Assembly: GCA_003223145.1 (NCBI GenBank)
Contig: QHXY01000064.1
Location: 1 to 36,937 of the forward strand
DNA: 36,937 nt
Source: Acidobacteriota bacterium
GTDB taxonomy: Bacteria; Acidobacteriota; Polarisedimenticolia; Gp22-AA2
Direction: 5' to 3'
Shown here in pieces: positions 20-24,103 of the stretch (positions are counted from its first letter, which is position 1; each line of letters opens with the position of its first letter). Made by a program: the position numbers and the translations under genes. The notes under the pieces were generated by a model. It worked only from the letters and a program-made list of their open reading frames with translations, did not search any database and was not told where the DNA came from.

Positions 20-1510
20 TCAGGCCGCCCCGCCGGCCGGAAGAATCTCGCCCTGACGCGATACGGCCCGTTCCCCCTGCAGACGCAGCAAGAAGGTCAT
101 GATCGCGCCGTCCAGGATCCCAAGGTAGACCCACGTGTTCGGGTGATCGAAATTCGGCTCCGCAATCCCGCTGACCATGAGCGCCACGAGCCCCAGGAGG
201 AGAACTCGGATCATGAACGTCTCATTCTTGTCCGAAACGTGCGAGTTCAGGTACAAGAGCCTGATGAGAGCGTACAGAAAGATCGACAGGAAACAGATCC
301 CTCCCAGAACGCCGACCTCGGTGGCCGCCTGAAGATAGGTGTTGTGGACCGGCAATCTCCGGAAGTTCTTCGTGAAATTCTCGAAGTTCTTCAAGCCGAC
401 ACCCACCAGAGGGCTTCTGTGCAATTGCTCGAACGCCAGCGTCATGAGGTACATCCTCTGCCCCTCCCCTTTGAAGAGACCCGAGTGCCGAAGGTAGTTC
501 CGGGAGAGCCAGTCGAACAGGCCGCTGACGTAAACGAGAACTCCACTCCCCGCAAGGATCGAGGTGAAGTGGATCGAGCGAGAGGGCCAGCGAAAATAGG
601 GAAACAGAAGGATCTCGAGAAGCATCGCGATCCAGCCCGTGACGCTCAGCGTCAGCGTGATCCCGGTGCAGACGACGACCACGCCCAGCAGGCCGAGCCA
701 TCTCCGGAGCGGCGGCACTCCCGGGAGAAAAGTCACGAAGAGCAGGACCGGCAGGACCACCACCAGGAAGGAGGAAAGGTGCTGAGGCCGGGGAGAGAAC
801 CCCGAGGCGCGCAGCATCACCCCCCAGGGGGTGTCCTTGAAATTCTGTGTCTTGTCGATGACGCAGGTGAGGACGATGTTGGTCGTGAGGTACAGGACAA
901 CCTGGGCGATGCCCGCCAGCGCGGCGAACACGCCGACCCCGATCATCACCCGGATGGCGGAGCGGACGAGGGCGATCGTCCTGATGAACTGGGACAGAAG
1001 GAAGAAAGCGACGAACTTCACGATCAGCGCGAGGATGGCATGGACGAAGGTGGAGAGAGGCTCGTTGATCGCGGAGAGGAACGCGAATCCGAGCAGCGCC
1101 AGGATCATCATCAGAGTGGCGTTGACTCGAATTGGGTACTGGGTCCCGGCGAGCGTCGAAGCAAGCCAGACGGGCAGGAGAAGCGCCAAGGTGATCTCCA
1201 TGGGGTCGATCTTGCCCAGACTGAGCCCGACGAGCTGCGAGGCCAGGATGATCGGCAGGATGAACAACAGGACATCCTGGCGCTCCCAAATAAACCTCGC
1301 GCGAATCGCCACGAGCCACGCCAGGAATCCCAGACCCGCCACGCAGACCGTCAGCAAGAAGGGATACTTCTCGAGATAACTGAGGTTGATGAGATGGGAG
1401 AGGAGCGGGTCGGTGCAGACGACGGCCGCCAGCGCCAGGCCGAGGATCACGCCAACGGAGACCGAAAGCGCGGTCATGTCCCCCGGATGCCCTGTTCTCA
1501 TGGGTTTCAT
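20..1510 (-). CDS. O-antigen ligase / Wzy-type polymerase family membrane protein
   Basis: A 496-residue integral inner-membrane protein with about ten or more hydrophobic segments (for example near 15-33, 50-70, 80-97, 105-122, 132-146, 157-176, 187-209, 246-264, 271-302, 315-331, 400-420 and 433-445). A large periplasmic loop at about 335-398 carries GVGLKNFENF and VHNTYLQAATEVG. That is the Wzy_C/WaaL signature, and the VHN histidine is at residue 389. Proteins of this family either polymerise lipid-linked repeat units or ligate glycan to an acceptor, and sequence alone does not separate the two. The start codon overlaps the preceding gene's stop in ATGA, which fixes the start and implies translational coupling. 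It is the only polymerase/ligase candidate in the window. Function class is sure; polymerase versus ligase is open. Confidence 0.88.
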   Translation of the reverse strand: MKPMRTGHPGDMTALSVSVGVILGLALAAVVCTDPLLSHLINLSYLEKYPFLLTVCVAGLGFLAWLVAIRARFIWERQDVLLFILPIILASQLVGLSLGKIDPMEITLALLLPVWLASTLAGTQYPIRVNATLMMILALLGFAFLSAINEPLSTFVHAILALIVKFVAFFLLSQFIRTIALVRSAIRVMIGVGVFAALAGIAQVVLYLTTNIVLTCVIDKTQNFKDTPWGVMLRASGFSPRPQHLSSFLVVVLPVLLFVTFLPGVPPLRRWLGLLGVVVVCTGITLTLSVTGWIAMLLEILLFPYFRWPSRSIHFTSILAGSGVLVYVSGLFDWLSRNYLRHSGLFKGEGQRMYLMTLAFEQLHRSPLVGVGLKNFENFTKNFRRLPVHNTYLQAATEVGVLGGICFLSIFLYALIRLLYLNSHVSDKNETFMIRVLLLGLVALMVSGIAEPNFDHPNTWVYLGILDGAIMTFLLRLQGERAVSRQGEILPAGGAA

Positions 1511-3165
1511 TCAATGTAACCCAGCGCCCTGAGTCTCGATTTGATGAGCTCCGCCTCTTCCTCGGTGTAGGTCACCTCCGACTCGGGAGATCCCGGTCCG
1601 GTGTGGGCCCCGGAGCGCAGGACGGGATGCGTCGAGCGATATTCACCCTCGATCATTTCCTCCAGAATGCGACCGTCCATGTCGCCCGGGACGGCGGCTC
1701 CCGCCAGGTACAGGATCGTCGGGGCGAGATCGATGAGCGTGGGACGGCGAAGCTCCGCGTGCGCGCGCACGCGGCTGCCGTAGGCCATGAGGATCCCCTC
1801 GTTCCGGTGATAACCCGACTTGAGTCCGGTCCTCTGCTTCCCGTCCAGAGAGAAGATCGGCTCGCCGGGGCCGGTGCTCCTTCTGTTGACGTAGGAGTAG
1901 CCGTCATCGAGATTCCATTCGATGGTCAAGTCGGGAGCCTGAGAGGTGTAGGGACCCTGGTAGATCTCCTCTCGCCTGTACACGCGGTTCACGACCTTCC
2001 TGTTGCTTTCCGGGTCCGACCACTCACGCAGGCGGCGGACCACATCGTCGCGAAGGCTCTCATACGCCCCGGGCTCCACCACGCCCATCGGCTCCCGCCC
2101 CCGGACATTGAGCCAGAGAGACGGATAGGAGCCCTCCTCCGAATAGACCTGGGTCCGCCTCCAATCGAGATGGGAGAACCGCAGCCATGACTCCATCCGC
2201 GAGGCGATTCGCGTTCTGCGGATGAGAAGTTTCTTAATCGGCACCGGGGTGACCTTCAGCCCGAACGACTTGCACAAGTTCAGCACCGACCTGGCGAGTC
2301 TCCGGTGCCATCCACCTCCGCCCCAGCCGCCCTCGCCGGTTGCCCTGTATCGCAGCAGACCCTGACGCTGCAGCCAGCGATTGAGCGAGATCCCCTTCGC
2401 ACCGTTCCCCCCGTGACCATGGTCGGACATCACCAGCAGCGTCGTGTCGTCCCCCAGGCACGCCAGGAACTCTCCGAGGATCGTGTCCGCCCGCCGGTAG
2501 ATCGATTCGATCGCGCCCTCGTAATGGCTCCAGAAGTGGTAGGCGACCGCGTCAGTTTCTCCCAGGACGAGAACAAAACAGTCCCAGGGCTCGCCCTTGT
2601 AGAGGTGGAGGGCGGCCTTCGCCTTTCTCGACATCGTGTCGTCGAGGCCGGACAGCAGCATCCCTCCGGAGAGAGCCTCCAGGTTCGCGGAAATCGGATA
2701 TTCGCCGACCACCTGCCTGAGCGTGGATCTCAGGCCGGGCGGGTGGATGGCCGATGCGTCGGCGACGCCTCCGATGCCGGGAGCGTCGAAACCGCTGATC
2801 ACCACACCGTTGATCTGTTCGGGAGGATAGGTGAGCGGAACCGAGAGGAGGGCGACTCTCCGTCCCGCTTCGGACAGGATCTTCGCGAAAGAATCCGCCT
2901 TGCGCCAAGTCGCATTGATGAACTGGCTCTCATAGCTGTGGGGCCGGCGCGCCATGAAATCATAGATACCGTGCCGGCCCGGATTCATCCCGGTCAGGAA
3001 CGACGACCAGGCGGGAAAGGACATGGCGGGCACGGTCGAGCCGAGCTCATGGCAGCAGCCCTCGTTGAGGAGCTTGGAAAAGTGTGGAAGCTTCCCCTCG
3101 AGGACCAGGGGCTTGATGACGTCGAACGTCGCCCCGTCCAGACCGAGCACCACGACTCTAGGCAT
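1507..3165 (-). CDS. Alkaline phosphatase superfamily hydrolase (type I phosphodiesterase/nucleotide pyrophosphatase-like)
   Basis: 552 residues. The N-terminus MPRVVVLGLDGATFDV supplies the first metal-binding Asp (D10). The segment STVPAMSFPAWSSFLTG (about 43-59) holds the Ser/Thr nucleophile region. SDHGHGG (about 247-253) and GYHRNEGI (about 455-462) supply the remaining metal ligands of this superfamily. There is no signal peptide or membrane segment, so it appears cytoplasmic. It ends in the EEEAELIKSRLRALGYIE tail common to this subgroup. It lies between a GT2 gene (8-nt overlap) and the O-antigen ligase-like gene (ATGA overlap), so it is an integral operon member. Known relatives cleave phosphodiesters, pyrophosphates or sulfates, or transfer phospho-groups. 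Acting on a nucleotide sugar, lipid-phosphate sugar or glycan phosphate is inference. Confidence 0.85.
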   Translation of the reverse strand: MPRVVVLGLDGATFDVIKPLVLEGKLPHFSKLLNEGCCHELGSTVPAMSFPAWSSFLTGMNPGRHGIYDFMARRPHSYESQFINATWRKADSFAKILSEAGRRVALLSVPLTYPPEQINGVVISGFDAPGIGGVADASAIHPPGLRSTLRQVVGEYPISANLEALSGGMLLSGLDDTMSRKAKAALHLYKGEPWDCFVLVLGETDAVAYHFWSHYEGAIESIYRRADTILGEFLACLGDDTTLLVMSDHGHGGNGAKGISLNRWLQRQGLLRYRATGEGGWGGGGWHRRLARSVLNLCKSFGLKVTPVPIKKLLIRRTRIASRMESWLRFSHLDWRRTQVYSEEGSYPSLWLNVRGREPMGVVEPGAYESLRDDVVRRLREWSDPESNRKVVNRVYRREEIYQGPYTSQAPDLTIEWNLDDGYSYVNRRSTGPGEPIFSLDGKQRTGLKSGYHRNEGILMAYGSRVRAHAELRRPTLIDLAPTILYLAGAAVPGDMDGRILEEMIEGEYRSTHPVLRSGAHTGPGSPESEVTYTEEEAELIKSRLRALGYIE

Positions 3166-4270
3166 CCTTTCCGAGACCTCCCCGGCGTACCCTCGCCTCG
3201 GCCGGCGTTGGCACCACCGTCGCCGGCCCAGGGGCCGGCGTCTGTCCCATCTCTCCCCCCGGGAGCCGCGGCGATTCGTCCGCGGGAACCCGCTTGGTCC
3301 TGCGATAGTTCATGGCACGGGCGCGCCCGACCGCAATCAGCGCCGCCGCAGTCCCGGCCATGAGAGCGGTCGCGCGGACCCACAGCAGCGGAACCGAAAG
3401 CAGCGCCACGGCGAAATCCCTTCGCAGGGCTCGCAGCGTGAACCGAGCCATGGTGGCGGTCGAAACACCGGCAACCAGCCCGGCCGCGAGGAGCCCCCTG
3501 GGGATGACGAGACCCGCAAGACCACAGAGCGAGACCAGGTAGACGCTCAGCACCTGGAACTTGAGGCTTGGCGGAGTGTACGAGTCCGAAACGGCCTTGC
3601 CCGGATATTTCTTGTAGACGACGGCTCTCCAGTAACCTCGCCAGAACTTGATCAGGAAGTAGCTCCGGAGCGTCTCGGGGTGCTCATGGTACACGGCCGC
3701 GTTCCGGTTGAAGACCATCTTTCCGCCGCTGTGCGATATCCGGTAGGCCAGCTCGACATCCTCGTTCATGATGAGGTCGGCGCGGAAACCGCCGATGTCG
3801 AGAAAGTAGCGCCGTCGGAAACCGACGGAGTAGGACGCCAGGAAATCCACCCGGCGGCTGTTTCGGAGTCTGCGATAGCGATGCTCGAACTCAATCTGCA
3901 CGAACCGGGCAACAAGCCCCCGCTGGCGCGTCCTGTAGGCTCCCTTCACCGCCACGACCTCGCTGTCCTCGAACGGGCGCAGCATCTCCCGCAGCCAATT
4001 GGCGTCCGCCACACAGTCGGCATCGATGAACAGGATGATGTCTCCCCGCGCGCTCGCGGCGCCGGTATTCCTGGCGGCGGCGGGGCCCTGGTTGACCTGG
4101 CGGACCACGCGCACGCCGCTACGCTCGAGATAATCGACCCCCCCGTCGGTCGATCCATCGTCGACCACCACGATCTCGAGCTCGGGCTGGACCGACTGCC
4201 CCCGCAGGGCGGCGAGGCAGCGATCCAGTCTCTGTTTCTCGTTGTGGACCGGGATGACGATCGAGATCAT
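3158..4270 (-). CDS. Glycosyltransferase family 2, membrane-anchored
   Basis: 370 residues. A GT-A fold catalytic domain fills about 1-235. It starts with MISIVIPVHNEKQRLDRCLAAL and has VVVDDGSTD at 34-42, the DxD metal/nucleotide-sugar motif as FIDADC (D83-x-D85), and NEDVELAYRI as the acceptor-side ED motif. From about 240 to 325 there are three or four hydrophobic segments that anchor it to the membrane, then a proline-rich tail with no recognisable domain. It would transfer a sugar from an NDP donor to the growing lipid-linked oligosaccharide on the cytoplasmic face. It overlaps the downstream hydrolase gene by 8 nt, and its start overlaps the stop of the upstream GT4 gene by 4 nt. Donor sugar cannot be inferred. 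Confidence 0.9.
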   Translation of the reverse strand: MISIVIPVHNEKQRLDRCLAALRGQSVQPELEIVVVDDGSTDGGVDYLERSGVRVVRQVNQGPAAARNTGAASARGDIILFIDADCVADANWLREMLRPFEDSEVVAVKGAYRTRQRGLVARFVQIEFEHRYRRLRNSRRVDFLASYSVGFRRRYFLDIGGFRADLIMNEDVELAYRISHSGGKMVFNRNAAVYHEHPETLRSYFLIKFWRGYWRAVVYKKYPGKAVSDSYTPPSLKFQVLSVYLVSLCGLAGLVIPRGLLAAGLVAGVSTATMARFTLRALRRDFAVALLSVPLLWVRATALMAGTAAALIAVGRARAMNYRRTKRVPADESPRLPGGEMGQTPAPGPATVVPTPAEARVRRGGLGKDA

Positions 4271-5397
4271 CGCGTCGCCTCACGGGCGTGCAGCGATTCG
4301 TAGACGCCGAGCATCTCCCGGGCCGCCCGCGACCAGGAGAACTCGCGCGCCCGGTCCCGCCCCTTGCGGCTCAGGCTCTCCCTCAAGACGCCGTCGCGTA
4401 AGACGCGCGCCATGGCATCGCTCAGGGCGCCCTCGTCCCCGGGAGGCACCAGGACGGCGGCTCCCCCGGCCACCTCGGGCAGCGAGCCGGCGTTCGAGGC
4501 GATCACCGGAACGCCGTGAACCATGGCCTCCAGCATGACGAGACCGAACCCTTCGACGAGAGAGGGAAACACCAGGGCCCTCGCCGACGTGAAGAGACCG
4601 GGCAGGTCCGCCTCGGGGACGTATCCGAGGTGCCGGACGGTCCCATCGAGACCCAGCTCGTTGATCGTTTTCATGACCGTTTCGTAGGCGTTGCCGCGAT
4701 TCCCCGCGAGGATCAGATCGCATCCGCCCAGCGCTGCCCGGGTCCGACCGAATGCCCGCACGAGCCCTTCGACGTTCTTGGTCTTTTCGATCTGGCCGAC
4801 GTAGAGCAGAAAGTCACCTCGGAGACTGTATTTACGCCGTATCGCCTCGGCGTTCAAGTCGCCATGGAGGGCCGCCGTGACCCCCTCGAGCACGACGGTG
4901 ATCCTGTCCGGATGGACGCCGAGGAAACGCACCATCTCTCTCTTCGTGAAATCCGAGACCGCGACGATACGCCCCGCCGCCCGCGCCGCCGCCCGGGCGG
5001 CCACCCGACGGACGCGTGCGCGGAAGGCGTTGAACTTCTCGGGGAAGGCGAACTCAGCGACGTCATGGAAGGTGACAACCACCCGGTGCCCGAGACCCAT
5101 CGTGAAGATGGTGTTGGGCAGGTGGACGACGTCGGGGCGGTAGCGGCGCACCAGCAGCGGGAACACCCCCGCCTGCCACGGCAGCCTGAGGTACGGTGAA
5201 CGAGGCGCGCTCATCCGGACGCACTGGATGTTCGACGCGCGCAGAGACTCCGGATACCACTCCTGCCAGGGGGCGTGAAACAGGAGGAAGTGGTGCTCCG
5301 GTCCCGCATCGGCAAGAGCCTTCACCAGCTCCATCGTGTAGCGATCCGGGCCGCGTAGCCGGTCGTTGTCGTTGATCGCGTTGATCGCGACCCTCAC
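4267..5397 (-). CDS. Glycosyltransferase family 4 (GT-B)
   Basis: 376 residues with a two-domain GT-B layout. The N-terminal acceptor domain (about 1-165) begins MRVAINAINDNDRLRGPDRYT. The C-terminal donor domain contains LLYVGQIEKTKNVEGLVRAF (about 197-216) and the retaining-GT signature FPSLVEGFGLVMLEAM (about 285-300), an E-x7-E pattern. No membrane segment is visible. It is the last of three consecutive GT4 genes, each joined by a 4-nt overlap, which suggests that they act in turn on the same oligosaccharide. The order of the sugars and the identity of the donor cannot be read from sequence. Confidence 0.9.
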   Translation of the reverse strand: MRVAINAINDNDRLRGPDRYTMELVKALADAGPEHHFLLFHAPWQEWYPESLRASNIQCVRMSAPRSPYLRLPWQAGVFPLLVRRYRPDVVHLPNTIFTMGLGHRVVVTFHDVAEFAFPEKFNAFRARVRRVAARAAARAAGRIVAVSDFTKREMVRFLGVHPDRITVVLEGVTAALHGDLNAEAIRRKYSLRGDFLLYVGQIEKTKNVEGLVRAFGRTRAALGGCDLILAGNRGNAYETVMKTINELGLDGTVRHLGYVPEADLPGLFTSARALVFPSLVEGFGLVMLEAMVHGVPVIASNAGSLPEVAGGAAVLVPPGDEGALSDAMARVLRDGVLRESLSRKGRDRAREFSWSRAAREMLGVYESLHAREATR

Positions 5398-6686
5398 GCT
5401 GCACCCCTCGGCTCGAGCGCCCTCAGGGCGCCCCGGATCAGGCGTTCCTCTTTCTCCAGCAGCACGCTCCAGTCGAGGCCCTCGCTGTGTGCCACGGCGT
5501 TCCGGGAGTACTCCCGGTACACGTCGGGATCACCGAGGAGGGCCTTCGCCGCGGCAGCGAAGGACACGGCGTCGTAGTCGACCGCAATGCCGCATCGGCC
5601 CTCGGTCAGGATCGTTTCGGTCTCGCTCCCCTTCGTTCCGATCACGGGAAGGCCCGCGGCGATGTACTCGAAGACCTTGAGAGGGACCGCGTAGCGTCTC
5701 AGGTCCATGGGGACGAAGAACGCCAGGCCGACGTCCGCCTGCTTGAAAGCGGCGGGCAGCGAATCGTTTGACCGAGTCCCCAGGAATGTCACGCGGTCCC
5801 CGACACCTTCTTTCGTCACGAGTGCCTTGAGGTGGTTCAAGTAGGAGGCGATCCCGCCGCCGATGATCGTCAGCCTCACCTGCGGGATGCTCCGGGCGAT
5901 TTCGGGCAGCGCGGAAATGACCACGTCGAGGCCGCTCCAGTAGGTGACGTTACCCGAATAGACGAGCGTCGGAGCGTGCGAAGACCTCTCCCGGGCCGGA
6001 CTGAACGCGTCCACGTTCACGCCGTTCGAGACGATGGAGACCTCCCTGCCCGACTCGCGCCGCCGGAGCTGGGCGAGGCTCCGCCCCACGGAGACGACCA
6101 GATCGGCGCGCTTCATGAGGTAGGTCTCCAGCTTGGCGAGGAGAAGCTGGCGGACCCGCGGGACCACGAGGCCCGGCTCGTAGTCCACGTCCTCGTAGAC
6201 CAGACATCGGACCCTGCCCAGGAGCTTCATGAGGTACGCGACAAGCCCGGCTCTGGGTCCAATCGCGACGCAGACGTCGAACCTTCCACCCGCTCGAAAA
6301 AGACAGTGGGGGAGAAATGAGGGGATGAAGAGAGCGTCTTTCAGCAGAGCGAGCGAGGTCACCATCGAGAGAAGACGGCTGCGCCAGGGTTTCGGACCGG
6401 CGCCGCTGATCACGGGTCTCGCCTTCGTCAGGTCGCGGCTGAGGCCCGGATAGTGGTTGAGCAGCGGGTTGATGTCCAGGTAGCGGACTCCATCCCGGAC
6501 GAAGCACCTGGACGAGGGGACCAGCATGTCCTTGATCATCCTCAGCGGCGGTCCTGGGGCGAGCTTGCGTTTGTAGGCCACAACCGTCTCCCGGCACCTC
6601 GCGGAAAAATACGGGATCAGATGATGGTCGCGATTGTTCGGCTGCTTCTCGATGTCGATGACCGTCAGGATGAGAAGACGATTCAT
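5394..6686 (-). CDS. Glycosyltransferase family 4 (GT-B)
   Basis: 430 residues from the start at 6686 (MNRLLILTVIDIEKQPNN). The frame stays open about 72 codons further upstream, but that stretch is Arg/Pro-rich and antisense-like and lies inside the neighbouring gene, so the later ATG is chosen; it overlaps the upstream gene's stop by 4 nt. Features are LVYSGNVTYWSGLDVVISAL in the donor domain, VRLTIIGGG, and the C-terminal VFEYIAAGLPVIGTKGSETE element, which replaces the usual E-x7-E loop. It is predicted to be cytoplasmic or peripheral and to add one sugar to the lipid-linked repeat unit. Specificity is unknown. Confidence 0.87.
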   Translation of the reverse strand: MNRLLILTVIDIEKQPNNRDHHLIPYFSARCRETVVAYKRKLAPGPPLRMIKDMLVPSSRCFVRDGVRYLDINPLLNHYPGLSRDLTKARPVISGAGPKPWRSRLLSMVTSLALLKDALFIPSFLPHCLFRAGGRFDVCVAIGPRAGLVAYLMKLLGRVRCLVYEDVDYEPGLVVPRVRQLLLAKLETYLMKRADLVVSVGRSLAQLRRRESGREVSIVSNGVNVDAFSPARERSSHAPTLVYSGNVTYWSGLDVVISALPEIARSIPQVRLTIIGGGIASYLNHLKALVTKEGVGDRVTFLGTRSNDSLPAAFKQADVGLAFFVPMDLRRYAVPLKVFEYIAAGLPVIGTKGSETETILTEGRCGIAVDYDAVSFAAAAKALLGDPDVYREYSRNAVAHSEGLDWSVLLEKEERLIRGALRALEPRGAA

Positions 6687-7906
6687 GTTCTTCCGACCCG
6701 CCCGCGGAGCGCATCCTTGTAAGCCGAGAGGAGAACGGCAATGTGGCGCTCTCTGGTGAACTCCGTTCGGACAATTCCCTCGCCGTTGCGCCCGAGCTCG
6801 GCGGCGAGCGAGTCCGACTCGAGGACGCGCCGGACGCGGTTTCCCATGGCCTGAAGGTCGTTGGGCTCGACGAGGAAGCCGTTCACTCCGTCGCGCAGCC
6901 ACTCGGTGATACCGCTCACTCGGAAGGCGACGACCGGTTTCGCGAATGCCAGGGACTCCAGTCCCACCAGCACGAAGTTCTCGGGAATCACGGAGGGGAC
7001 GACCACCACCCGGCAGCGTCGGTAGTATGGATCGAGCTCATCGAAGGCAACCGGGCCACGGAAGAAGACCCTTCCCCCCAGCCGGAGCGCTTCGACGAGC
7101 CGTCGTGCCCCCTCTTCCTGCGGCCCTTCTCCGACGATTTCGGCGACCCAATGGCTGTCCCGGATCAAATCCAGCATAGCAATGAAAGACAATATCCCCT
7201 TCTCCTCGCTCAGCCGACCCACGAAGAGGATCACGGGAGGGTCGGGAGGCCCTGTGTCTCCTCCGTTGTCCCGCCCGCGACCGATCGCCGGACCCTTGCT
7301 CGTGAAGAACGGGATGAATCGCAGCTTTCGGGGATCGAACCTGTGGGCCAGCAGCTCCTCCCGGAAGTAGGAGTTCGCCACCAGGATGATGTCGAGCCGC
7401 CGGTACTCCCGCGCCAGAAGGCGCCTTAGAGGCCAGGCGGACGCCTGCTTGATCCGGGACACCAGCGTGGCGGCGTGACCGCGGGTGAACCGGCGGACCA
7501 GCCGCCGCATCTCACCGGCAGCAAGCCCGTCCGAGGGGACCTTGAGCCCCCAGGAGTAGAGGGGATGAATGTCATGCAGGGTCAACACCGTCGGCAGCAG
7601 CAGGGACAATCGGCGCATGGCGGCCGGCCCCATCGTGGTGAAGATCGAGTGGAGGTGGATCAGGTCGGAGCGCTCGGTCTGGATGACATCCTCAAGACCG
7701 CGGAAGGCGATCGCCGAGCTGAGGGGTCCGACGGAGCTCCTCACCAGGTACTCCCCATCCTCCCGATGGATCCCTTTCACGCCCCTCTGAAGCCTGACGA
7801 CGACGTTCTCATGCCCCTCGTGACGGAGCGCAGCGAGCAACTCCCGCAGGTAGGTACGGACCCCGCCGACGGACTGCTGTTTGTCATGAACGTGCAGGAT
7901 CTTCAT
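6683..7906 (-). CDS. Glycosyltransferase family 4 (GT-B)
   Basis: 407 residues from the ATG at 7906 (MKILHVHDKQQSVGGVRTYL). The upstream open frame is Arg-rich shadow of the PIG-L gene and is discarded. The N-terminal domain has the glycine-rich SVGGVRTYLRELL element typical of GT4. The donor domain has VILFVGRLSEEKGILSFI, and the C-terminal signature is VVPSVIPENFVLVGLESLAF. The start shares ATGA with the PIG-L stop, so the two are probably translationally coupled. A hexosamine deacetylase directly followed by a glycosyltransferase fits modification of an early sugar and then extension, but that order is inference. Confidence 0.88.
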   Translation of the reverse strand: MKILHVHDKQQSVGGVRTYLRELLAALRHEGHENVVVRLQRGVKGIHREDGEYLVRSSVGPLSSAIAFRGLEDVIQTERSDLIHLHSIFTTMGPAAMRRLSLLLPTVLTLHDIHPLYSWGLKVPSDGLAAGEMRRLVRRFTRGHAATLVSRIKQASAWPLRRLLAREYRRLDIILVANSYFREELLAHRFDPRKLRFIPFFTSKGPAIGRGRDNGGDTGPPDPPVILFVGRLSEEKGILSFIAMLDLIRDSHWVAEIVGEGPQEEGARRLVEALRLGGRVFFRGPVAFDELDPYYRRCRVVVVPSVIPENFVLVGLESLAFAKPVVAFRVSGITEWLRDGVNGFLVEPNDLQAMGNRVRRVLESDSLAAELGRNGEGIVRTEFTRERHIAVLLSAYKDALRGRVGRT

Positions 7907-8802
7907 TGGGCGAGACGATCGGCATGATCGTTCGTGCCCAGATTCGTCCGGGCGGTGTTGGTCCAGGAGGCGAGATACCGATACAGGTACTGATAGTTCG
8001 CCAGACCGGTGAGGTAGAAAGCCTCCGCGTGCCCCCTCCCGCGCAGATGCTCGATCGAGCGGTAGGCGCCCAATCCGAGGATGCAGTTGAGGTAATCGAC
8101 GTGCCGCAGCTGGCTCTCGAACTGCTGAATAGCGAGGCGCTTCTTCGGAAGCACCGCCTCGATGTCCACCAGAACATTCGCGAGCAGCGGACTCCATACC
8201 TCGTACCCGCAGCACTTCATGTCGTCTAACGTGCTGCCGGAGGATTGAATCGCCTCGAGGAAAACGCTGCCGGTCTCCCAGTGGTCCCGGTGACGTTCGG
8301 TGAGGAACGGCAGATAGACCAGATCGGGCTGCTTGGTCCTGAGGACGTTCGCCAGGGCGGACGTGACCTCGGGGTTCACGGAGAGCTCCCCATCGGGTTG
8401 GTCCAGGAAGACGAGATTTCCGATGCCGATGATGTCGGCCGCGCGGCGCGATTCCTCCTTGCGGGTTTCCACCAGTCGCTGCTCCCGCTCGCGCCTTTCG
8501 GATTCGGGAAGACGCGAGGCATTCAGATCCGGATCCCCATGCCGCCCGTCCGTCATGAAAACAACTGTCACGCTCGCTCCGGCGAGGACGTGCTTGCGCA
8601 GGGTCCCCCCGCAACCGAGAATTTCATCGTCCATGTGGGGTGCCAGAACCAGGATGCGTCGACCCTCGGGAATCTCGACGAGACGGGGCTGCCGGTAGGT
8701 CTCGGTCAGAATATGGGAAAGAGCCAGGGAATTTCCCACGTGATCCTCGGCCAGCCGGTAGTACGCTGCGTTCACAAGCTTCCTGATCAGTCTCTTCATC
8801 AT
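7903..8802 (-). CDS. PIG-L family N-acetylglucosamine-type deacetylase
   Basis: 299 residues. The zinc motif appears as APHMDDEILGCGG (H56, D58, D59, E60) and the second part as TERHRDH (H171 and H174), both canonical for the PIG-L/MshB/BshB (LmbE) fold. VFMTDGRHGD follows the first motif as usual. The family removes N-acetyl groups from N-acetylhexosamines carried on lipid, inositol or nucleotide. Here the likely substrate is a lipid-linked or nucleotide N-acetyl sugar of this glycan, leaving a free amine. No signal peptide, so cytoplasmic. It sits between the ABC permease gene (38-nt gap) and the first GT4 gene (4-nt overlap). The freed amine could be the acceptor for GNAT enzymes encoded further right (inference). 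Confidence 0.88.
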   Translation of the reverse strand: MMKRLIRKLVNAAYYRLAEDHVGNSLALSHILTETYRQPRLVEIPEGRRILVLAPHMDDEILGCGGTLRKHVLAGASVTVVFMTDGRHGDPDLNASRLPESERREREQRLVETRKEESRRAADIIGIGNLVFLDQPDGELSVNPEVTSALANVLRTKQPDLVYLPFLTERHRDHWETGSVFLEAIQSSGSTLDDMKCCGYEVWSPLLANVLVDIEAVLPKKRLAIQQFESQLRHVDYLNCILGLGAYRSIEHLRGRGHAEAFYLTGLANYQYLYRYLASWTNTARTNLGTNDHADRLAQ

Positions 8803-8840: not shown

Positions 8841-9659
8841 CTAGTAATGCGAGACGTTACCCACCGTCTTGATTCTCCGAACGGCGAGGTGCACAAGGTA
8901 GAGCCCGATCGGGATGAAGACGACCGCAAAGAGGGCCAGCGCGCCGATTTCCGGAAGCAGCTGGGTCACCCCGTACCCGTCCAGCAGCGCCCGGCGCATG
9001 GCCGTGAGAGAGTGAGTGAGCGGGATGTACGAGGAGATCCTGACGAGCCAGGGCGGCAGGACTTCCGAGGGAAACGCGACACCCCCGAGAAAACTGAAGA
9101 CCCCTCCTATCAGGTAATTCACCGGGACTACCCGTTTGAAGACGAGGGTCACGCTCGAGACCATGATCCCGATCGAGGAGAAGCACAGGATGGACAGGAG
9201 CATGATGACGACCGCGGCCAGGGGGTTGGCGTTGCCGATATCCAGCCCGAAGATCAAGGTGCCGAAGAGGAGATAAAGAAGAAAGCGAAGGGACGTGAAC
9301 AGGGAGGGCCAAAGGGAGGACGAGATGAGCAGTGTCGAGTAACGGCACGGAGAGAGAAGGAGAATCTCGAGGGTGCCCATCAACTGGCTTTCCTGGATGC
9401 TATTCGTGAACGAGGCCAGGCTCACCGTGAGGTAGTCGGTGAAGGCGACGCCGATGAGCAGGAAGGCGAAATAATTCCCCTTGTACGGCCCCAAGGCCGC
9501 GGCGGACACGCCCTTGAACACGTCGCCGACGTAGTAGAAGATGGCGGCCCAGAAGATGACCGCCGAGATCTGACTCAGGAAGAGGGCCTTGTAGCTGATC
9601 GTGAGCAGGAAATCCCTCTTTATGAACGCCCAGGCGATTCTCATCCAGTGTCGAATCAT
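8841..9659 (-). CDS. ABC-2 type transporter permease
   Basis: 272 residues from the ATG at 9659 (MIRHWMRIAWAFIKRDF). A longer frame upstream is shadow of the ATPase gene. There are six hydrophobic segments, at about 23-44, 62-84, 108-138, 147-172, 180-197 and 236-257. A conserved ABC-2 element is seen in TLEILLLSPCRYSTLL and in the GGVAFPSEVLPPWL loop with YIPLTHSLTAMRRALLDG. The start overlaps the ATPase stop by 4 nt, so the two form one exporter, with this half spanning the inner membrane. The family exports glycans, lipids or small molecules. Placement in a glycan operon favours a lipid-linked glycan, but the sequence does not resemble a typical KpsM strongly enough to say so. Confidence 0.88.
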   Translation of the reverse strand: MIRHWMRIAWAFIKRDFLLTISYKALFLSQISAVIFWAAIFYYVGDVFKGVSAAALGPYKGNYFAFLLIGVAFTDYLTVSLASFTNSIQESQLMGTLEILLLSPCRYSTLLISSSLWPSLFTSLRFLLYLLFGTLIFGLDIGNANPLAAVVIMLLSILCFSSIGIMVSSVTLVFKRVVPVNYLIGGVFSFLGGVAFPSEVLPPWLVRISSYIPLTHSLTAMRRALLDGYGVTQLLPEIGALALFAVVFIPIGLYLVHLAVRRIKTVGNVSHY

Positions 9660-10672
9660 CCTCGGACCGGTCCTTCCCGACTCGCGTGCATGAGGTCCCG
9701 CACCATCTCGTCGAAGTCCGCCGTCTCCCTGGCGCACTTCACGATCTCGCAACCGTCCCTGCCGAGGAACTTCAGGGCGTCCGAGAGAGCGGGCTTGCTC
9801 GCGTCGAGCTTCAGGGCCAGCTCGTATTCTCCGTGTTTGAGATGTTGGCAGGTGCATGCCTCGACTCCCGGGATCCCTTCCAGGCGGGACAGCTCGGGCC
9901 CTTCGATTCCGCGCACCACGATGCGGTAGGTACAGTGCCTGCCCGTTGCGGAATCGGTCTCCTCCGGGGTACCGGAGTAGATGATCCGGCCGTGGTTGAT
10001 GATCGCGATCCGATCGCACACCTGCTCCGCCTCGCTCGGGATGTTCGTGCAGAAAATGATGGTGCACTTCATCGTACTGATGATGCGATCCCGCATCAGC
10101 GCAAGGAAGCTGTGCCGCGCGAGCGGATCCAGCCCCTTCGTCGGCTCGTCCATGACCAGCAGCCTGGGGGCGCTGAGCAGGCCCCTGGCGATCGCCATCT
10201 TCTGCTTGATGCCGGTCGAGTACTCGTTGAATCGCCGGTCGATGTACTCCTTGAGATCGAGCATCTCCACGACTTCTTCAATCCTCCGCCTCATCAGGTG
10301 CATGTTCAGGTCGTACACCGAGGCGAAGAACTCCATGTTCTGGCGGCCGGTCAGCCTCCAGTAGAAGCTCCGCTCGTCGCTGGTGACGAGGCCGACTGCC
10401 TTTCGCACCAGAGCCGACTCGCGGACCACGTCGTGGCCGAAGACCCTGGCCTCGCCGCTGGTCGGCAACAGGAGGGAGCAGATCATCTTGATGAAGGTGG
10501 TCTTCCCGGCTCCGTTCGGTCCGAGAACCCCGAAAATCGTGCCCCCCTCGACCTGCAAGGACAGCTGATCGACTGCGACCGTCCGGCGCGCCGGGGAGCG
10601 CGCAAACAAGGACGTCCAGCCGGACTGGTGGCTGAAGATCTTGGTGAGGTTGACGGCCTCGATGGCGGTCAT
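9656..10672 (-). CDS. ABC transporter ATP-binding protein
   Basis: 338 residues. Walker A is GPNGAGKT (51-58). The Q-loop region is VTSDERSFYWRLTGRQN. The signature is YSTGIKQKMAIARG (151-164), a variant of LSGGQ, and Walker B is LLVMDEPTKGLDP (171-183). About 100 residues follow the nucleotide-binding domain, including an HCTYRIVVRGIEG stretch typical of the DrrA/NodI-like subclass. It energises the permease encoded immediately downstream. No promoter is needed between it and the OPX gene: the 142-nt gap upstream holds no gene and no clear signal. The start at 10672 has only a weak ribosome binding site. Substrate unknown. Confidence 0.9.
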   Translation of the reverse strand: MTAIEAVNLTKIFSHQSGWTSLFARSPARRTVAVDQLSLQVEGGTIFGVLGPNGAGKTTFIKMICSLLLPTSGEARVFGHDVVRESALVRKAVGLVTSDERSFYWRLTGRQNMEFFASVYDLNMHLMRRRIEEVVEMLDLKEYIDRRFNEYSTGIKQKMAIARGLLSAPRLLVMDEPTKGLDPLARHSFLALMRDRIISTMKCTIIFCTNIPSEAEQVCDRIAIINHGRIIYSGTPEETDSATGRHCTYRIVVRGIEGPELSRLEGIPGVEACTCQHLKHGEYELALKLDASKPALSDALKFLGRDGCEIVKCARETADFDEMVRDLMHASREGPVRG

Positions 10673-10814: not shown

Positions 10815-11555
10815 TCATGGAGGCGAGACCACGATGACGGACCTCCCCGAATTCTTTCCATGAAGCGCGTCCTGGACTTGAGGGTAGACCGCTATGCTCT
10901 GTTCGAAGTAAACGATCGGCCGGATGATGCGCTCGATCCGTACGAAGAATCTCTCGACGTTAGCGAACGAAGTGGCCGGGACGTACATGAGGTCTCCGCT
11001 CATGAGCTGGGCATTCTGCTCCCAGGCCCCGCCCCGGAAAAGGAGTTTGAAGTCCAGCTTTCTCAGCTCCGGGTTGGACAGATCGCCGCGGACCAGCAGG
11101 ACGCTGCGCTGTTTCGCGTCCCGTGTGAATCCACCCGCCCGCGAGATCGCCTCCACGGCCGAGGTCGGCGTATCGAACTGGTAGACCCCGGGCGTGTTCA
11201 CCTCGCCGAGCACGAAGATCTTGCGGTTCGGCGACGCCGTGATCTCCACGCTCACCTGCGGGTCGATGAAGAATTTTGACAGCCGCTCGGTCAACTCGAG
11301 CCGCAGCTGGCGCAGGCCCATTCCCCGAGTGTCGATATTTCCCACCAGCGGAAAGAAGAAGGTGTGATCCGGCTGGATCTGCGTTTTGCGGTTCAGGTCG
11401 TCGTGCCGGTAGATTGTGATTTCGACAGTGTCTCCCGGTCCAAGGATGAACTCGGAGATCCTGGGCTCCGGGATGGGGGTCGACGAGGGGGCATCCGCCG
11501 CCCGGGCGGTCTCGCCCTCGGACCGATCGACGGCCTGGGCGGGCGATCCAAGCAC
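10815..11555 (-). CDS. Polysaccharide export (OPX, Wza-like) protein, N-terminus doubtful
   Basis: Domains are Poly_export (about 35-110, FILGPGDTVEITIYRHDDLN) and one SLBB domain (about 112-190, FVLGEVNTPGVYQF), then an amphipathic C-terminal helix (about 198-216). OPX proteins form the outer-membrane or periplasmic channel for glycans. The frame as given begins at a GTG (11555) with MLGSPAQAVD, the end of a signal peptide. The hydrophobic core C-L-I-L-L-F-V is encoded in frame directly upstream, but a TGA at 11574-11576 cuts it off from any start. An ATG at 11574 lies one frame away, so a one-base change would give M-LILLFVLGSPAQA. Either there is an indel or short loss at this point, or an unusual start is used. 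The 76-nt gap to the upstream gene holds no other gene. Confidence 0.85.
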   Translation of the reverse strand: MLGSPAQAVDRSEGETARAADAPSSTPIPEPRISEFILGPGDTVEITIYRHDDLNRKTQIQPDHTFFFPLVGNIDTRGMGLRQLRLELTERLSKFFIDPQVSVEITASPNRKIFVLGEVNTPGVYQFDTPTSAVEAISRAGGFTRDAKQRSVLLVRGDLSNPELRKLDFKLLFRGGAWEQNAQLMSGDLMYVPATSFANVERFFVRIERIIRPIVYFEQSIAVYPQVQDALHGKNSGRSVIVVSPP

Positions 11556-11631: not shown

Positions 11632-13362
11632 TCAGTAGCCACCGATCCTCCCGAAGGCCCAGAAGATCGTCTTCGTCAAAATCACCAGATCGCGCCAGAC
11701 AGAATGATTGCGCACATAGGACACATCTTTGAGTATCCAGTCGTGGAAGGAGGAGTGATTGCGTCCACCGATCTGCCATGGACCCGTGATCCCTGGCTTG
11801 ATGCTGAGCCTCAGGTCCCTCCAGCTCGGGCTGAAGCGCATCTCCTCCATGACCAGCGGCCTGGGTCCGACCAGACTCATGTCCCCCGCCAGGACGTTCC
11901 ATAGCTGGGGAAGCTCGTCGAGGCTGAGCTTGCGCAGGAACCTGCCGACCCCCGTGACTCTCGGATCCTTGAAGATCTTGAACACCGGCCCATCCACGTC
12001 CTTGTTCGCGGCGAGTTGGCTCTGATGCTTCTCCGCGTCGACGACCATGGTGCGGAACTTCAGCATCCGGAACGGCCTGCCTCTCTCGCCACACCGCTGT
12101 TGCGAGAAAAAGACGGGACCAGCGGAATCCAGCTTGATGGCCACCGCGATCACCACGAACAGCGGAGAAAACAGCACGAGACCCTGCGCAGCGCCGATGA
12201 TGTCGAGCGCCCGTTTGAGCAGCGCCCCGAAGGCGCTCCTCGGGGCGGAAAGCCACGCCCCCGGACGCGATGGCGTACGCGGGGCCCTCGCCGTAGCCGG
12301 ACGCAAGGCCGGCTCGACCGGGATCCGATCCTTCACCACGACGCCTTCGTGGAGTTGGGAACCCGGCGAGACGGAACAGCCCGAACCGACCACGGAGTAT
12401 TCCGCGCGGCCGCCGCGCGCGATCGTCGCTCTGCTCCAGAGAACGCTCTCGCGCACAAGGCCTCCCGCCTCGATCACACAACCGTCGCCGATGACGGCCG
12501 GGCCGATGATCTGCGCATGCGGCTCGACCGTGCAATTGGCTCCGATGAGCACCGGACCGAGGACGTAGGCCTGCGACGAGACGTTCGTGTTCTCCCCAAT
12601 CCAACGATTGTCCCCGATATGCACACTCCCTCGGGGTGCGCGGAATCCGAGGCGCATCAAATCCTGGTGCAGTCGAAGGTAGTCACGCGTGCTCGACACG
12701 CTCTCCAGACTCGAGGGAGTGACGTAGGCGTGAACGGGACGGCCCGACTTCTGCAATTGCGGGATGAGCTGCTCCTTGATGTCCGTGAAGCTGCCTTCCT
12801 CCAGGAGCCCGAACACCTCCGGCTCGAAAAGGTACAAGCCAACGGAGCGACTGAGGGTTCGTCTGTCCCGGGTGGGATGGAGCACCTCGTAGTCCACGAT
12901 TCCGCTCGTCTCCGAGAACGAGATTTTTTCCAGATGTCCCTGGGTCCGTCTGCGCCGGGTGAAAGCCGCCGTGATCACGGCCCGGTTCCCGCGATGGCAC
13001 GCCTCGAACTCGCCGAGATCCAGGGAGTCGAGGAGCACGTTTCCGCCAATCACCAGGAACGTCTCAGTTCCGATGAGGTCGACGAAATCCAGAAGACACC
13101 CGGCCGGGCCCCTCGGGATCGGGTCCTCGGAATAATGGAGCGACACTCCATAGTGCCGGCCATCGCCAAATCGCGCCTGGACGAGCGGCCGGTCCTGGGG
13201 CGATAGCGCGATCCCGATGTCCGTGACGCCGAGCCGTCGCAGGGACTCGAGTTGAAGCTCGAGAAACGGCCTGTTCAGGAGTGGCAGCAGGGGTTTAGGG
13301 CAACCGATGGTGATCGGGTCGAGAAGGGAATTCTCTCCCCCAGCGAGAAGGACGGCTTTCAT
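11632..13362 (-). CDS. Fusion: degenerate nucleotidyltransferase + left-handed beta-helix + monotopic phosphoglycosyltransferase
   Basis: 576 residues from the ATG at 13362 (MKAVLLAGGE), preceded by GAGG about 10 nt upstream; starts at 13398 or 13419 are possible but less like the family. Residues 1-235 have the sugar nucleotidyltransferase fold, but LAGGENSLL stands where GxGTR is expected, and IGGNVLLD where the metal-binding GD is expected, so the domain may be inactive. Residues 247-345 are hexapeptide repeats. Residues 382-576 are a WcaJ/PglC-like transferase: KRALDIIG, a re-entrant helix with the SP pair (LFSPLF), LKFRTM, the catalytic Asp-Glu in LDELPQLWNV (D482-E483), SLVGPRP, and the C-terminal GITGPWQIGGRN. 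It should start repeat-unit synthesis by moving a sugar phosphate to undecaprenyl phosphate. It is the first gene of the minus-strand operon. Confidence 0.88.
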   Translation of the reverse strand: MKAVLLAGGENSLLDPITIGCPKPLLPLLNRPFLELQLESLRRLGVTDIGIALSPQDRPLVQARFGDGRHYGVSLHYSEDPIPRGPAGCLLDFVDLIGTETFLVIGGNVLLDSLDLGEFEACHRGNRAVITAAFTRRRRTQGHLEKISFSETSGIVDYEVLHPTRDRRTLSRSVGLYLFEPEVFGLLEEGSFTDIKEQLIPQLQKSGRPVHAYVTPSSLESVSSTRDYLRLHQDLMRLGFRAPRGSVHIGDNRWIGENTNVSSQAYVLGPVLIGANCTVEPHAQIIGPAVIGDGCVIEAGGLVRESVLWSRATIARGGRAEYSVVGSGCSVSPGSQLHEGVVVKDRIPVEPALRPATARAPRTPSRPGAWLSAPRSAFGALLKRALDIIGAAQGLVLFSPLFVVIAVAIKLDSAGPVFFSQQRCGERGRPFRMLKFRTMVVDAEKHQSQLAANKDVDGPVFKIFKDPRVTGVGRFLRKLSLDELPQLWNVLAGDMSLVGPRPLVMEEMRFSPSWRDLRLSIKPGITGPWQIGGRNHSSFHDWILKDVSYVRNHSVWRDLVILTKTIFWAFGRIGGY

Positions 13363-13582
13363 TCCCGCTGCCTCAATGATGACTCGGGCCTGCTGCATCC
13401 CGGACGGACCGGGATGCACCCCGAGTCATGACGAGTATGGTGTGGTCCTGCGGGCCGCGTGTCGATGACCGCATCGTGACGATTTTGTCAGGTGATTCAA
13501 TTGAGACCGTCGGCTCTCGCACAAGACCCTGCATGTCTCACGGCGGAGTCGCTGATAGCTTGGAATACTACCCCGCACCGTC

Positions 13583-13760: not shown

Positions 13761-13992
13761 GGGTTTATCGCGCGATCCAGGGCCTCCGCACTTCCGGAAC
13801 AGGAGGCACGAGGTGGGGGGAGTGGCACTGCGGGAGACAAACCTCCCGGAGGTCGATCTGGGTTGCATTCCCATGCTCTCCCGAGTGCGCTCGCAGCCAG
13901 GGGAGCGCGAGGGGAGCAGGAAACGCAGCGGCCGCGCCACCGCCCTCGCGAACTCTTCGATTGTCTCCAGACAAGAGGCGAGAGGGGAAACC

Positions 13993-15274
13993 ATGCGGAA
14001 AGGCTCGTGGTGGGGGAGGGGGATCGTGTGCTTCCTGGTCGCCGCGGCCACCGTGCTGGCGGGAGCCGGAAGCGAGAGTGCGGCAGAGGCGATCCCTCGG
14101 CCGAATTTCCTGATACTGGTCAGCGACGATCAGCGGGCGGAGACGATGGGCTTCATGCCGCGCACGGAGCAACGGATCTTCGAGGAGGGGATTGCTTTCG
14201 CCAATGCGTTCGCGACGACTCCCCTCTGCTGCCCCAGCCGGGCCAGCCTCCTGACCGGGATGTACGCCCACAGACATGGAGTCCGGACAAATAACATCAG
14301 CCTCACCCTCCCGACCGTCTTCGATCGTCTCCATGATGCCGGCTACTTTACCGGTCTCGTCGGAAAGTACCTCAACTCGTGGGACGGGACGCCCAGGCCC
14401 GAGTTCGACTTCTGGGTCAGCTTCCCCGGAGCGGGGGCGGCCTACGTCAATCCGAGCCTCAACGTGGGTGGGCAGTTCTCTCCAGTTCCTTCAGGCGGCG
14501 TCGGAGCAGGGAAGGCCGTTCGCGCTGCTGTTCACTCCGAACGCCCCCCGCCTTCCCGCCACCCCGGCGACGGAGGATCGGTCCCTCTACTCGAATCTCC
14601 CCGCATATCGCCCTCCAAGCTTCAACGAGGCGGACGTCTCGGATAAGCCCTTCTGGCTGAGATTTCATCTCCCCCTGACACCGTTCGAAGTCTGGCAAGT
14701 CGATAGGGACCGTCGTAACCAGCTGAGGTGCGTCGCCTCGCTCGATCGGGCCGTGGAGAGCCTCGTGCTCGATCTCGAGCGCCGAGGGCTTCTCGACAGC
14801 ACGGTCGTGCTCTATCTCTCGGACAACAGCGTGTTCTGGGGAGAGCACCGTCTGGTGAACAAGGCGAAGGTGTATGAGGAGGCGGTGCGGATCCCCTTCG
14901 CGGTCCGCTTCCCCCCGCTCGCCACCGTGCCCCGCGTGGAGACGGGCCTCGTGGCAATCATCGACATAGCCCCGACCATGTACGATCTGGCGGGGATCCC
15001 GATCCCCTCCGACGTGAGTGGCCGGTCGTTGGTGCCGCTGCTGACTTCGTCGGGCCCCTGGCGGGAGGACCTGATGCTGGAGGGATGGACGGGTCCCAGC
15101 TTTTCCGCCGTTCGCACGGGGACGAGGGTCTACGTCGAGAACCGCGTGGACCTGCCGGAGCTCTACGATCTGACCGCCGATCCGTACCAGCTCCGCAACC
15201 AGGTCTTCAACCGGTCTTACGCGACCGAAATCGCGGCGCTCCAGACGCGCCTGCGTGCGTTGAGGGGTGAGTGA
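13993..15274 (+). pseudogene. Secreted formylglycine-type sulfatase, broken by an internal loss and frame change
   Basis: ATG at 13993 follows AGAGGGGA. The signal peptide is about MRKGSWWGRG plus a hydrophobic core ending in AAEA near residue 33. Metal-binding VSDDQR (D45, D46) and the sulfatase signature C79-C-P-S-R-A-S-L-L-T-G, in which Cys79 is matured to formylglycine, are intact. Reading is normal to NPSLNVGG (about 14472), then resumes one frame over at SLQFLQAASEQGRPF (about 14477) and runs to 15274 with DNSVFWGEHRL and KAKVYEEAVRIPF, both typical sulfatase C-terminal motifs. Family members have about 20 residues between these two points, including the GY-x-TD-x-L stretch, so roughly 50-60 nt are missing. 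The enzyme would desulfate a glycan in the periplasm or outside. It may be a real pseudogene or an assembly defect. Confidence 0.8.
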
Positions 15275-22718: not shown

Positions 22719-23759
22719 ATGGTGATCGCAATCCGGCAAGCCGATCTTGTTGGGGACCGGCAGGTCGTCCTGGACCTCGTTCGTGACAATCTGACCGACG
22801 AGGCCACAGTGGAGCGCTACGAGTGGCTTTACAGAAAGAATCCGGACGGGGACGGGAAAGCGTGGATCGCCTCGGACGAGGCGAGCGGAGAGACGGTCGG
22901 GATCGCCTCGGCGTATCCGCGGCTCATGCAGGTCGCGGGGGAGCAGGTGACCTGCTGGAATCTCGGGGAGTTCGCCGTGAGCGCCTCCCATCGCAGCCTC
23001 GGCCCCGCGCTGCGCCTCCAGAGGGCCTGCCTCGGGCCCGTCCTTGAAGGGACGGTCGCGTTTTCCTACGACAATCCCAACGAGGGTTTCCTGGCGGTGT
23101 ACCGAAGGCTGGGTATCCCGGTCACGGCCCAGGTGGCGCGGTACCTCAAACCGCTGCGAGTGGACAGAAGGTTGGCTCGCTGGATCCGGAGCCGGATGAT
23201 CGCACGGCCCCTCTCCCTCCTGGGGAACGGGCTGCTGCGACTGAGAGACGTCCCCCTGCGGGTCGGCCGGCGCTTCGAGATCCGGCCGCACGAAGGTCCA
23301 TTCGACATGCGGTTCACGCACCTGCACGAGCGGGTCTCCCGGAGGTACACGGTCTACGGCGGGAGGCGGGCGGAATATCTCAACTGGAGGTATCGAGAGA
23401 ACCCGCTTCACCGATCCCGGGTCCTGACGGCCTGGTACAAAGGCGAGATGGCCGGCTACGTGGTGTTCCACCACCGTCTGGTCGACGGTTACATCACCGA
23501 CCTGTCCACGGAGGAACTTCCGGGTCTCCCGCTGGAGCTCTTGGCCGCGAGCGTCGAGACGCTCCGCCGGGTGGGGGCGTTCACCGTCAGCGCCTGGGCG
23601 ATACCGGGCAGTCCCCTGGTCACAGTCCTGCGGGGGGCGGGCTTTTTCCAAATGAAAGGTTATCCTCTCGTTGTCTGCACGAAGCCGGGCGGGCCCTTGG
23701 AAGGGCTGGTGACCGAGGCGGGCAACTGGTTCGTGACCCGGGGAGACAGTGACACATGA
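22719..23759 (+). CDS. GNAT family N-acyltransferase
   Basis: 346 residues, ATG at 22719 with GAGGCGGG upstream. The N-terminal half shows the GNAT pattern: YEWLYRKNPDG, ETVGIASAYPRLMQ, LGEFAVSASHRSLGPALRLQ (strand 4 plus the acyl-CoA pyrophosphate loop in a variant form), then FSYDNPNEGFLAVYRRLGI. The second half (about 195-346) has RYTVYGGRRAEYLNWRYRENP, so it may be a double-GNAT protein. No signal peptide. It stands between the CelD-like gene and the ACP gene, with 9-10 nt gaps, so co-expression is likely. Its acceptor and donor are unknown. Confidence 0.8.
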   Translation: MVIAIRQADLVGDRQVVLDLVRDNLTDEATVERYEWLYRKNPDGDGKAWIASDEASGETVGIASAYPRLMQVAGEQVTCWNLGEFAVSASHRSLGPALRLQRACLGPVLEGTVAFSYDNPNEGFLAVYRRLGIPVTAQVARYLKPLRVDRRLARWIRSRMIARPLSLLGNGLLRLRDVPLRVGRRFEIRPHEGPFDMRFTHLHERVSRRYTVYGGRRAEYLNWRYRENPLHRSRVLTAWYKGEMAGYVVFHHRLVDGYITDLSTEELPGLPLELLAASVETLRRVGAFTVSAWAIPGSPLVTVLRGAGFFQMKGYPLVVCTKPGGPLEGLVTEAGNWFVTRGDSDT

Positions 23760-23769
23760 GGGCGGCGGC

Positions 23770-24048
23770 ATGAACGGAGCCGACGGAATCGACGCCAGGA
23801 TCCTGGCCTTCGTCCAGGAGCGGTTTCCGTTCGCCAGGCAGCGGCGAGTGGCACGAGAGGACAGCCTCCTCGAATCGGGAATCGTGGATTCTCTCGGCGT
23901 CCTGGAACTCGTGGAATTCCTCGAAAGGACCTTCGGGATCTCCGTCACAGAGGAGGATCTCCTGCCGGAGAACTTCGACTCGATCCGCCGGATGGCCGAC
24001 CTGGTCGGCCGCAAAGTGGCGGGCCGGCCGCCTGCCGGCGACGTTTAG
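23770..24048 (+). CDS. Acyl carrier protein
   Basis: 92 residues from the ATG at 23770 (MNGADGIDARIL), with GAGGG upstream; a start at 23749 would overlap the GNAT gene. It is a small helical protein with DSLLESGIVDSLGVLELVEFL. The Ser of the DSL triplet is the phosphopantetheine attachment site, as in aminoacyl and acyl carrier proteins. It ends with a RMADLVGRKV helix. The gene lies directly before an AMP-forming ligase gene (55-nt gap), the usual arrangement in which the ligase loads the carrier. A small ACP in this gene order is also seen in exosortase-A-associated clusters. Confidence 0.88.
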   Translation: MNGADGIDARILAFVQERFPFARQRRVAREDSLLESGIVDSLGVLELVEFLERTFGISVTEEDLLPENFDSIRRMADLVGRKVAGRPPAGDV

Positions 24049-24103
24049 TCCATCCGGTCCGGCGACGTCTCGCGCGGGCCGGACGGTATCTGGAGCAACG
24101 GGG

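Follow-up and report, generated by a model that had tools for sequence, protein, structure and literature searches.

How cells divide their undecaprenyl phosphate among peptidoglycan and surface polymers is not settled; the initiating phosphoglycosyltransferase (PGT) is the gate. A nucleotide-sensing role for the accessory domains of PGTs is a recent idea that comes from WbaP, whose accessory domain is stabilised by UMP, UDP and UTP and was proposed to set activity with UMP, which inhibits the enzyme with an IC50 of 4.1 uM (PMC10942596). Among relatives of GDP-mannose pyrophosphorylase, the non-catalytic GMPPA binds GDP-mannose and inhibits GMPPB (PMC11228364). Residue roles for such nucleotidyltransferases are available from the product complex of the Arabidopsis enzyme VTC1, in which Gly85 and residue 80 bind guanine, while Asp111, Asp219 and Glu195-Lys196 are catalytic (PMC9168903).

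The window analysed here, a whole stretch of 36,937 nucleotides from an Acidobacteriota genome (contig QHXY01000064.1), carries a gene that joins a nucleotidyltransferase-like domain, a left-handed beta-helix and a monotopic PGT (Table 1). The gene is a single open frame, running from an ATG at 13362 to a stop codon that ends at 11632; an in-frame GTG is present upstream at 13419, and all full-length homologues begin at the M(K/R)A of the ATG. Profile searches assign residues 2-213 to NTP_transferase (PF00483, E 9e-20, 71.7 bits against a cut-off of 21.2), which establishes both family and fold at the profile level, and residues 383-568 to the monotopic PGT profile Bac_transf (PF02397, E 2e-65, 220 bits against a cut-off of 27). 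Between them, Hexapep matches residues 271-300 (E 1e-10) and LbH_EIF2B matches residues 252-352 with 50.2 bits, slightly below its 54-bit cut-off. The three-part layout that a first-pass annotation had read from the letters of this DNA is thus borne out by the Pfam matches.

Table 1. Coordinates in the window of the fused gene, its domains and motifs, and the genes of the adjoining cluster
Feature	Position	Strand	Basis
Fused gene: dead nucleotidyltransferase, left-handed beta-helix, monotopic PGT (576 aa)	11632..13362	-	translation, Pfam, NCBIfam, five full-length homologues
Residues 1-240, nucleotidyltransferase-fold pseudoenzyme domain	12643..13362	-	PF00483, 71.7 bits; best solved relatives
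Residues 252-352, left-handed beta-helix (hexapeptide) domain	12307..12609	-	Hexapep and LbH_EIF2B
Residues 383-568, monotopic PGT catalytic domain	11659..12216	-	Bac_transf, E 2e-65; 157 bits to WbaP structures
Residues 8-16 GGENSLLDP, pyrophosphate loop with GxGTR degenerate (N for G11, L for R13)	13315..13341	-	alignments
Residues 77-88 YSEDPIPRGPAG, nucleobase-pocket segment kept (acidic 80, G85, A87, G88)	13099..13134	-	alignment; roles from PMC9168903
Residues 106-108 GGN, GD motif with metal Asp lost (N108)	13039..13047	-	alignment of 42 stand-alone homologues and 13 dead domains
Residues 194-197 DIKE, catalytic Glu (VTC1 Glu195) replaced by Lys (K196) in 13/13 dead domains	12772..12783	-	alignments
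Residue S221, second metal Asp (VTC1 Asp219) lost	12700..12702	-	alignment
DX12P re-entrant helix, D387-P400	12163..12204	-	motif found
Catalytic dyad D482-E483, within SLDELPQLWNVL	11914..11919	-	aligned with WbaP
Wza-type polysaccharide export protein (Poly_export, SLBB), next gene downstream	10815..11555	-	
ABC transporter ATPase	9656..10672	-	
ABC-2 type membrane transporter, true start probably further in	8841..10067	-	
Four glycosyltransferase genes (GT2 and GT4 type)	3158..8614	-	
Wzy_C / O-antigen ligase-like membrane protein	20..1510	-	

The PGT domain aligns to the WbaP structures across its whole length. The catalytic Asp-Glu pair and the Ser-Pro helix, which the annotation had described as kept, were both found, the latter as a DX12P motif (definition from PMC12802240) whose proline lies within 'FSP'. 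The sole strongly hydrophobic stretch of the fusion protein is the re-entrant helix region (19-residue windows starting at 385-402), and therefore the fusion appears to have no bundle of four transmembrane (TM) helices; Pfam and a hydrophobicity scan of the whole protein detected neither PF13727 nor the N-terminal four-helix TM bundle of large PGTs. Judged by these residues, the domain looks competent, and transfer of a sugar-1-phosphate to undecaprenyl phosphate is predicted.

The best solved sequence relatives of residues 1-347 are a UTP-glucose-1-phosphate uridylyltransferase (8x7s) and VTC1 (7x8j and 8yre), with GMPPB (7d72) also matched. In both 8x7s and VTC1 (7x8j) the GTR loop is intact and the two aspartates, that of the GD motif and the second metal Asp, are present; the fusion has none of these. 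Compared with VTC1, it is without Arg13 (L13), Asp111 (N108), Glu195 (K196), Trp217 (L219) and Asp219 (S221), and it also has no EKP, the motif whose Glu and Lys hold the sugar phosphate. The other fusions have D/N and H at the altered loop positions, and all six read D/N-T/S-H/L (GENSL here), so that GxGTR is absent from each. Since a few otherwise intact homologues have His in place of the Arg (GAHL), the loss of the Arg alone is not decisive. We compared 13 dead domains, from the six fusions and seven stand-alone partner proteins described below, with 42 stand-alone homologues of the same phylum. All 42 stand-alone homologues have the GD Asp, against 0/13 dead domains (0/6 fusions, 0/7 partners); the second Asp or Glu is found in 40/42 and 1/13, the active-site Trp in 41/42 and 0/13, and the second loop Gly in 40/42 and 1/13. 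The loss of the GD Asp is not a matter of chance. The fusion of genome G001 retains the second Asp. The first-pass annotation had already noted the loss of the GxGTR loop ('LAGGENSLLDP' is found in its place) and of the metal Asp of GD; the second metal Asp, the catalytic Glu and the active-site Trp are three losses beyond these, and on sequence grounds the domain cannot be an ordinary pyrophosphorylase, as its reading of the domain as dead implied. What is retained lies on one side, with the nucleobase part of the pocket kept and the catalytic and sugar-phosphate residues gone as far as the alignments tell; the PKP lysine (K23) is kept in 6/6 fusions, and the stand-alone partners drift at some pocket residues (G9 to T, S or A; K23 to R). 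A single-sequence structure model of residues 1-350 (pLDDT 40.6, with only the beta-helix reasonable) was not used for fold searches.

The five full-length homologues (42-45% identity) come from the same taxonomic order, where the fusion occurs in 6 of 12 genomes, this one included; none appeared in the remaining genomes of the class. The annotation had named homologues as the check on the active-site loss, and every same-architecture homologue found, all five of them, shares it. A local error or frameshift is thereby ruled out as the cause of the lost motifs. Purifying selection acts on the dead domain, for which five pairs with a dS of about 0.35-1.05 give dN/dS values of 0.20-0.33; it evolves slightly faster than the PGT domain (0.10-0.28). 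Homologues of this architecture with intact GTR and GD, which the annotation had named as a refutation of its reading, were sought among 396 genomes from the phylum, 193 genomes from one class and 72,556 records of plasmids, and no such nucleotidyltransferase-PGT fusion turned up; outside the phylum, coverage was limited to a single pattern scan, four individual genomes and the plasmid collection. Plasmid candidates from Nonomuraea and Rhodococcus are actually separate neighbouring genes, and the Nonomuraea nucleotidyltransferase beside the PGT retains both GTR and GD; a scan of genome contigs with a single sequence returned PGT-only relatives. One genome of the set, G009, has a disrupted paralogue, a second, truncated fusion copy that runs from the N-terminal domain to residue 281 (L080, 3690-4526, minus strand) and adjoins a transposase/integrase-like frame at 2506-3690.

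A profile search begun from one distant match revealed a two-gene version in a second class of the same phylum, with ten copies in 9 of 193 genomes and 8 genera. Here the nucleotidyltransferase-beta-helix protein, about 350-400 aa long, has a gene of its own directly upstream of a PGT gene of about 575 aa, whose product consists of an unassigned N-terminal domain, a beta-helix and a PGT; this arrangement holds in 8/8 loci with enough upstream sequence. The active site of the separate nucleotidyltransferase is missing the same residues as that of the fusion, and both proteins carry the signatures PRGxAG and DIKE. In trees, the dead domains of the fused and the split layout group in a single clade (99/97) to the exclusion of the 42 stand-alone relatives, and their PGT domains fall in one 16-row set (100/96) that also contains two small stand-alone PGTs; no dead nucleotidyltransferase was found beside the small PGTs nearest to the family. 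The simplest history is a single loss of activity in an ancestral PGT-associated nucleotidyltransferase, from which fused and split forms then arose, and it is provisional because branches are long and sampling is limited. The N-terminal domain of the two-gene PGT (about 240 aa; L157, 12848-13567, plus strand, and homologues) is well conserved (LLDSRPxY, SDWLLxIDP, RVRRIQRYYDxxTW, RGVPSxDV) and matches no Pfam or PDB family. Its profile alignment with nucleotidyltransferases is collinear, but at E 0.006-0.02 the homology is not reliable; it is possibly a still more eroded nucleotidyltransferase. A partly degenerate branch was also seen among stand-alone nucleotidyltransferase-beta-helix proteins (L085, L086 and L128), which keep GD and have eroded loop and second-Asp motifs (GKGSELLP, WCHIDNP); no PGT linkage of this branch was seen in the loci examined.

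Because the genes that follow it on the same strand encode an exporter, the ATPase and permease of an ABC transporter, glycosyltransferases and a Wzy_C-type protein, the fusion gene is most likely the one that provides the initiator for a surface-polysaccharide cluster. A chain-length gene of the Wzz/BY-kinase type comes after it in sister genomes, and one two-gene locus examined lies near a WecG-type glycosyltransferase. The association with the PGT is constant while the remaining cluster content varies, and the clusters examined are surface-polysaccharide clusters. Several further genes of the window deserve mention. A type I phosphodiesterase/nucleotide pyrophosphatase family protein is encoded inside the cluster (1507-3165, minus strand); its substrate might be nucleotide sugars, or it might modify the polymer. 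A sulfatase gene oriented away from the PGT operon (13813-15274, plus strand) seems to occupy two overlapping frames, a possible frameshift, with the N-terminal sulfatase-like part in 13813-14646 and a C-terminal SGSH_C/Sulfatase match in 14276-15274. Farther along, 22719-26965 (plus strand) encodes an acyl carrier protein, an AMP ligase like TIGR03098 and a PLP decarboxylase (TIGR03099-like, slightly below cut-off), with GNAT-type acyltransferases next to them, a set in the style of exosortase-A/PEP-CTERM systems that accompanies an ABC-dependent polysaccharide cluster. The ligase, which resembles the exosortase-A-associated acyl-CoA ligases (24104-25656, plus strand), is split over two frames by a frameshift or assembly error, with its N-terminal match in 24104-24913 and its C-terminal match in the frame of 24133-25656.

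We propose, with a probability of about one half, that the dead module is a nucleotide- or nucleotide-sugar-sensing pseudoenzyme that regulates the committed step, by analogy with the UMP-sensing domain of WbaP and with GMPPA. The gene product would be the initiating PGT of an exopolysaccharide cluster in which the nucleotidyltransferase-beta-helix module replaces the nucleotide-sensing domain of the large monotopic PGTs. The module would bind a nucleotide or nucleotide sugar (UMP or UDP, or the PGT's own donor) without turnover, dimerise through the beta-helix and signal its occupancy to the catalytic domain; scarce undecaprenyl phosphate would then be committed in step with the nucleotide-sugar state. 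As the relatives conserve both the loss and the fold, the dead part is probably a built-in nucleotide sensor or regulator: the loss is seen in 6/6 fusions and 7/7 partners, yet acidic-80, G85, A87 and G88 persist in 13/13. With the nucleobase side kept and the catalytic and sugar-phosphate residues gone, the ligand could equally well be a nucleotide (UMP, UDP or NTP) or a nucleotide sugar, and the annotation's 'sensor for nucleotide sugars' should therefore be widened to nucleotides. It should be noted that conservation of these residues could reflect folding instead of binding, and that binding could be weak or lost, given that pocket residues drift in the stand-alone partners and the EKP pair is gone.

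The main rival is a purely structural role, in which a ligand-free module only dimerises or positions the PGT, standing in for the 4-TM bundle and the domain of unknown function through which large monotopic PGTs dimerise. In this family the beta-helix serves for dimerisation, as it does in VTC1 (PMC9168903), WbaP dimerises mostly via its accessory domain (PMC10942596), the activity of EpsZ is thought to depend on dimer formation (PMC12802240), and the fusion has no TM bundle. We nevertheless consider a scaffold unlikely, if well worth keeping in view, as it predicts neither that the nucleobase pocket is kept in 13/13 while the catalytic half is lost, nor the need for a separate dead nucleotidyltransferase gene beside the PGT gene. 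Alternatively, the module might serve as a docking platform that pairs in trans with an active pyrophosphorylase, as in GMPPA-GMPPB and KJC1-VTC1, and so brings NDP-sugar synthesis to the PGT. The nucleotidyltransferase-beta-helix build is shared with these complexes, and the source genome has a stand-alone protein of this build (L081) in which both the metal Asp (N-S-D) and the Arg of the loop are intact. Such docking seems improbable, however, since no other nucleotidyltransferase was detected beside the fusion in the window or in the homologous loci examined, and the one that neighbours the PGT in the two-gene layout is itself dead.

An active enzyme with a rewritten site, making or cleaving an NDP-sugar through other residues, would fit the purifying selection on the N-terminal domain, the GAHL relatives that also manage without the Arg, and the second Asp of the G001 fusion; with the metal Asp, catalytic Glu, Trp and loop Gly lost together and no compensating acidic pair apparent from the alignments, we give it very little credence. 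That the domain is the relic of a decaying bifunctional enzyme, devoid of a present role, would account for the lost catalytic residues and the truncated paralogue beside a transposase-like frame, and is scarcely credible in view of the dN/dS values and the conservation of length and pocket over two classes.

Returning to the sensing pseudoenzyme, we tentatively extend it to the whole lineage: one group of initiating PGTs may be controlled by dedicated pseudo-nucleotidyltransferases, fused or encoded by the adjacent gene, which would gauge, at the committed step, the pool of nucleotides or nucleotide sugars. Where the module has its own gene, the dead protein would pair with the PGT via the beta-helices, as a bacterial GMPPA-like device. 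If true, this is an independent solution, with a dead sugar-activating enzyme recruited to the same place on the PGT as the sensing domain of WbaP. The existence of the module both fused and as a separable protein also provides a soluble module amenable to testing against PGT output.

A literature search that did not extend to O'Toole et al. 2021 (PNAS), which surveys PGT fusions systematically, returned no description of a nucleotidyltransferase-PGT fusion. With WbaP, WcaJ and EpsZ, large monotopic PGTs that combine PF02397 with PF13727, the protein shares the catalytic domain with its DX12P motif and Asp-Glu dyad, an N-terminal accessory cytosolic module and an initiator role in surface-polysaccharide clusters; unlike them, it has neither the four-helix TM bundle nor PF13727, and its accessory module is a dead nucleotidyltransferase with a beta-helix. 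Like the Bi-PGTs, in which a functional domain is fused to a PGT (definition in PMC10942596), it carries an extra domain on a monotopic PGT core, but it would not be strictly bifunctional, because the fused domain appears to have no catalytic residues. The nucleotidyltransferase-beta-helix build is that of GMPPA and plant KJC1, regulatory relatives of GDP-mannose pyrophosphorylase, and GMPPA is likewise a pyrophosphorylase relative with its catalytic residues lost, being catalytically inactive and regulatory, although by sequence the N-terminal domain is nearer to GMPPB- and UGPase-like chains than to GMPPA. In contrast to GMPPA and KJC1, the module described here is attached to, or encoded beside, the consumer of an NDP-sugar and not its maker.
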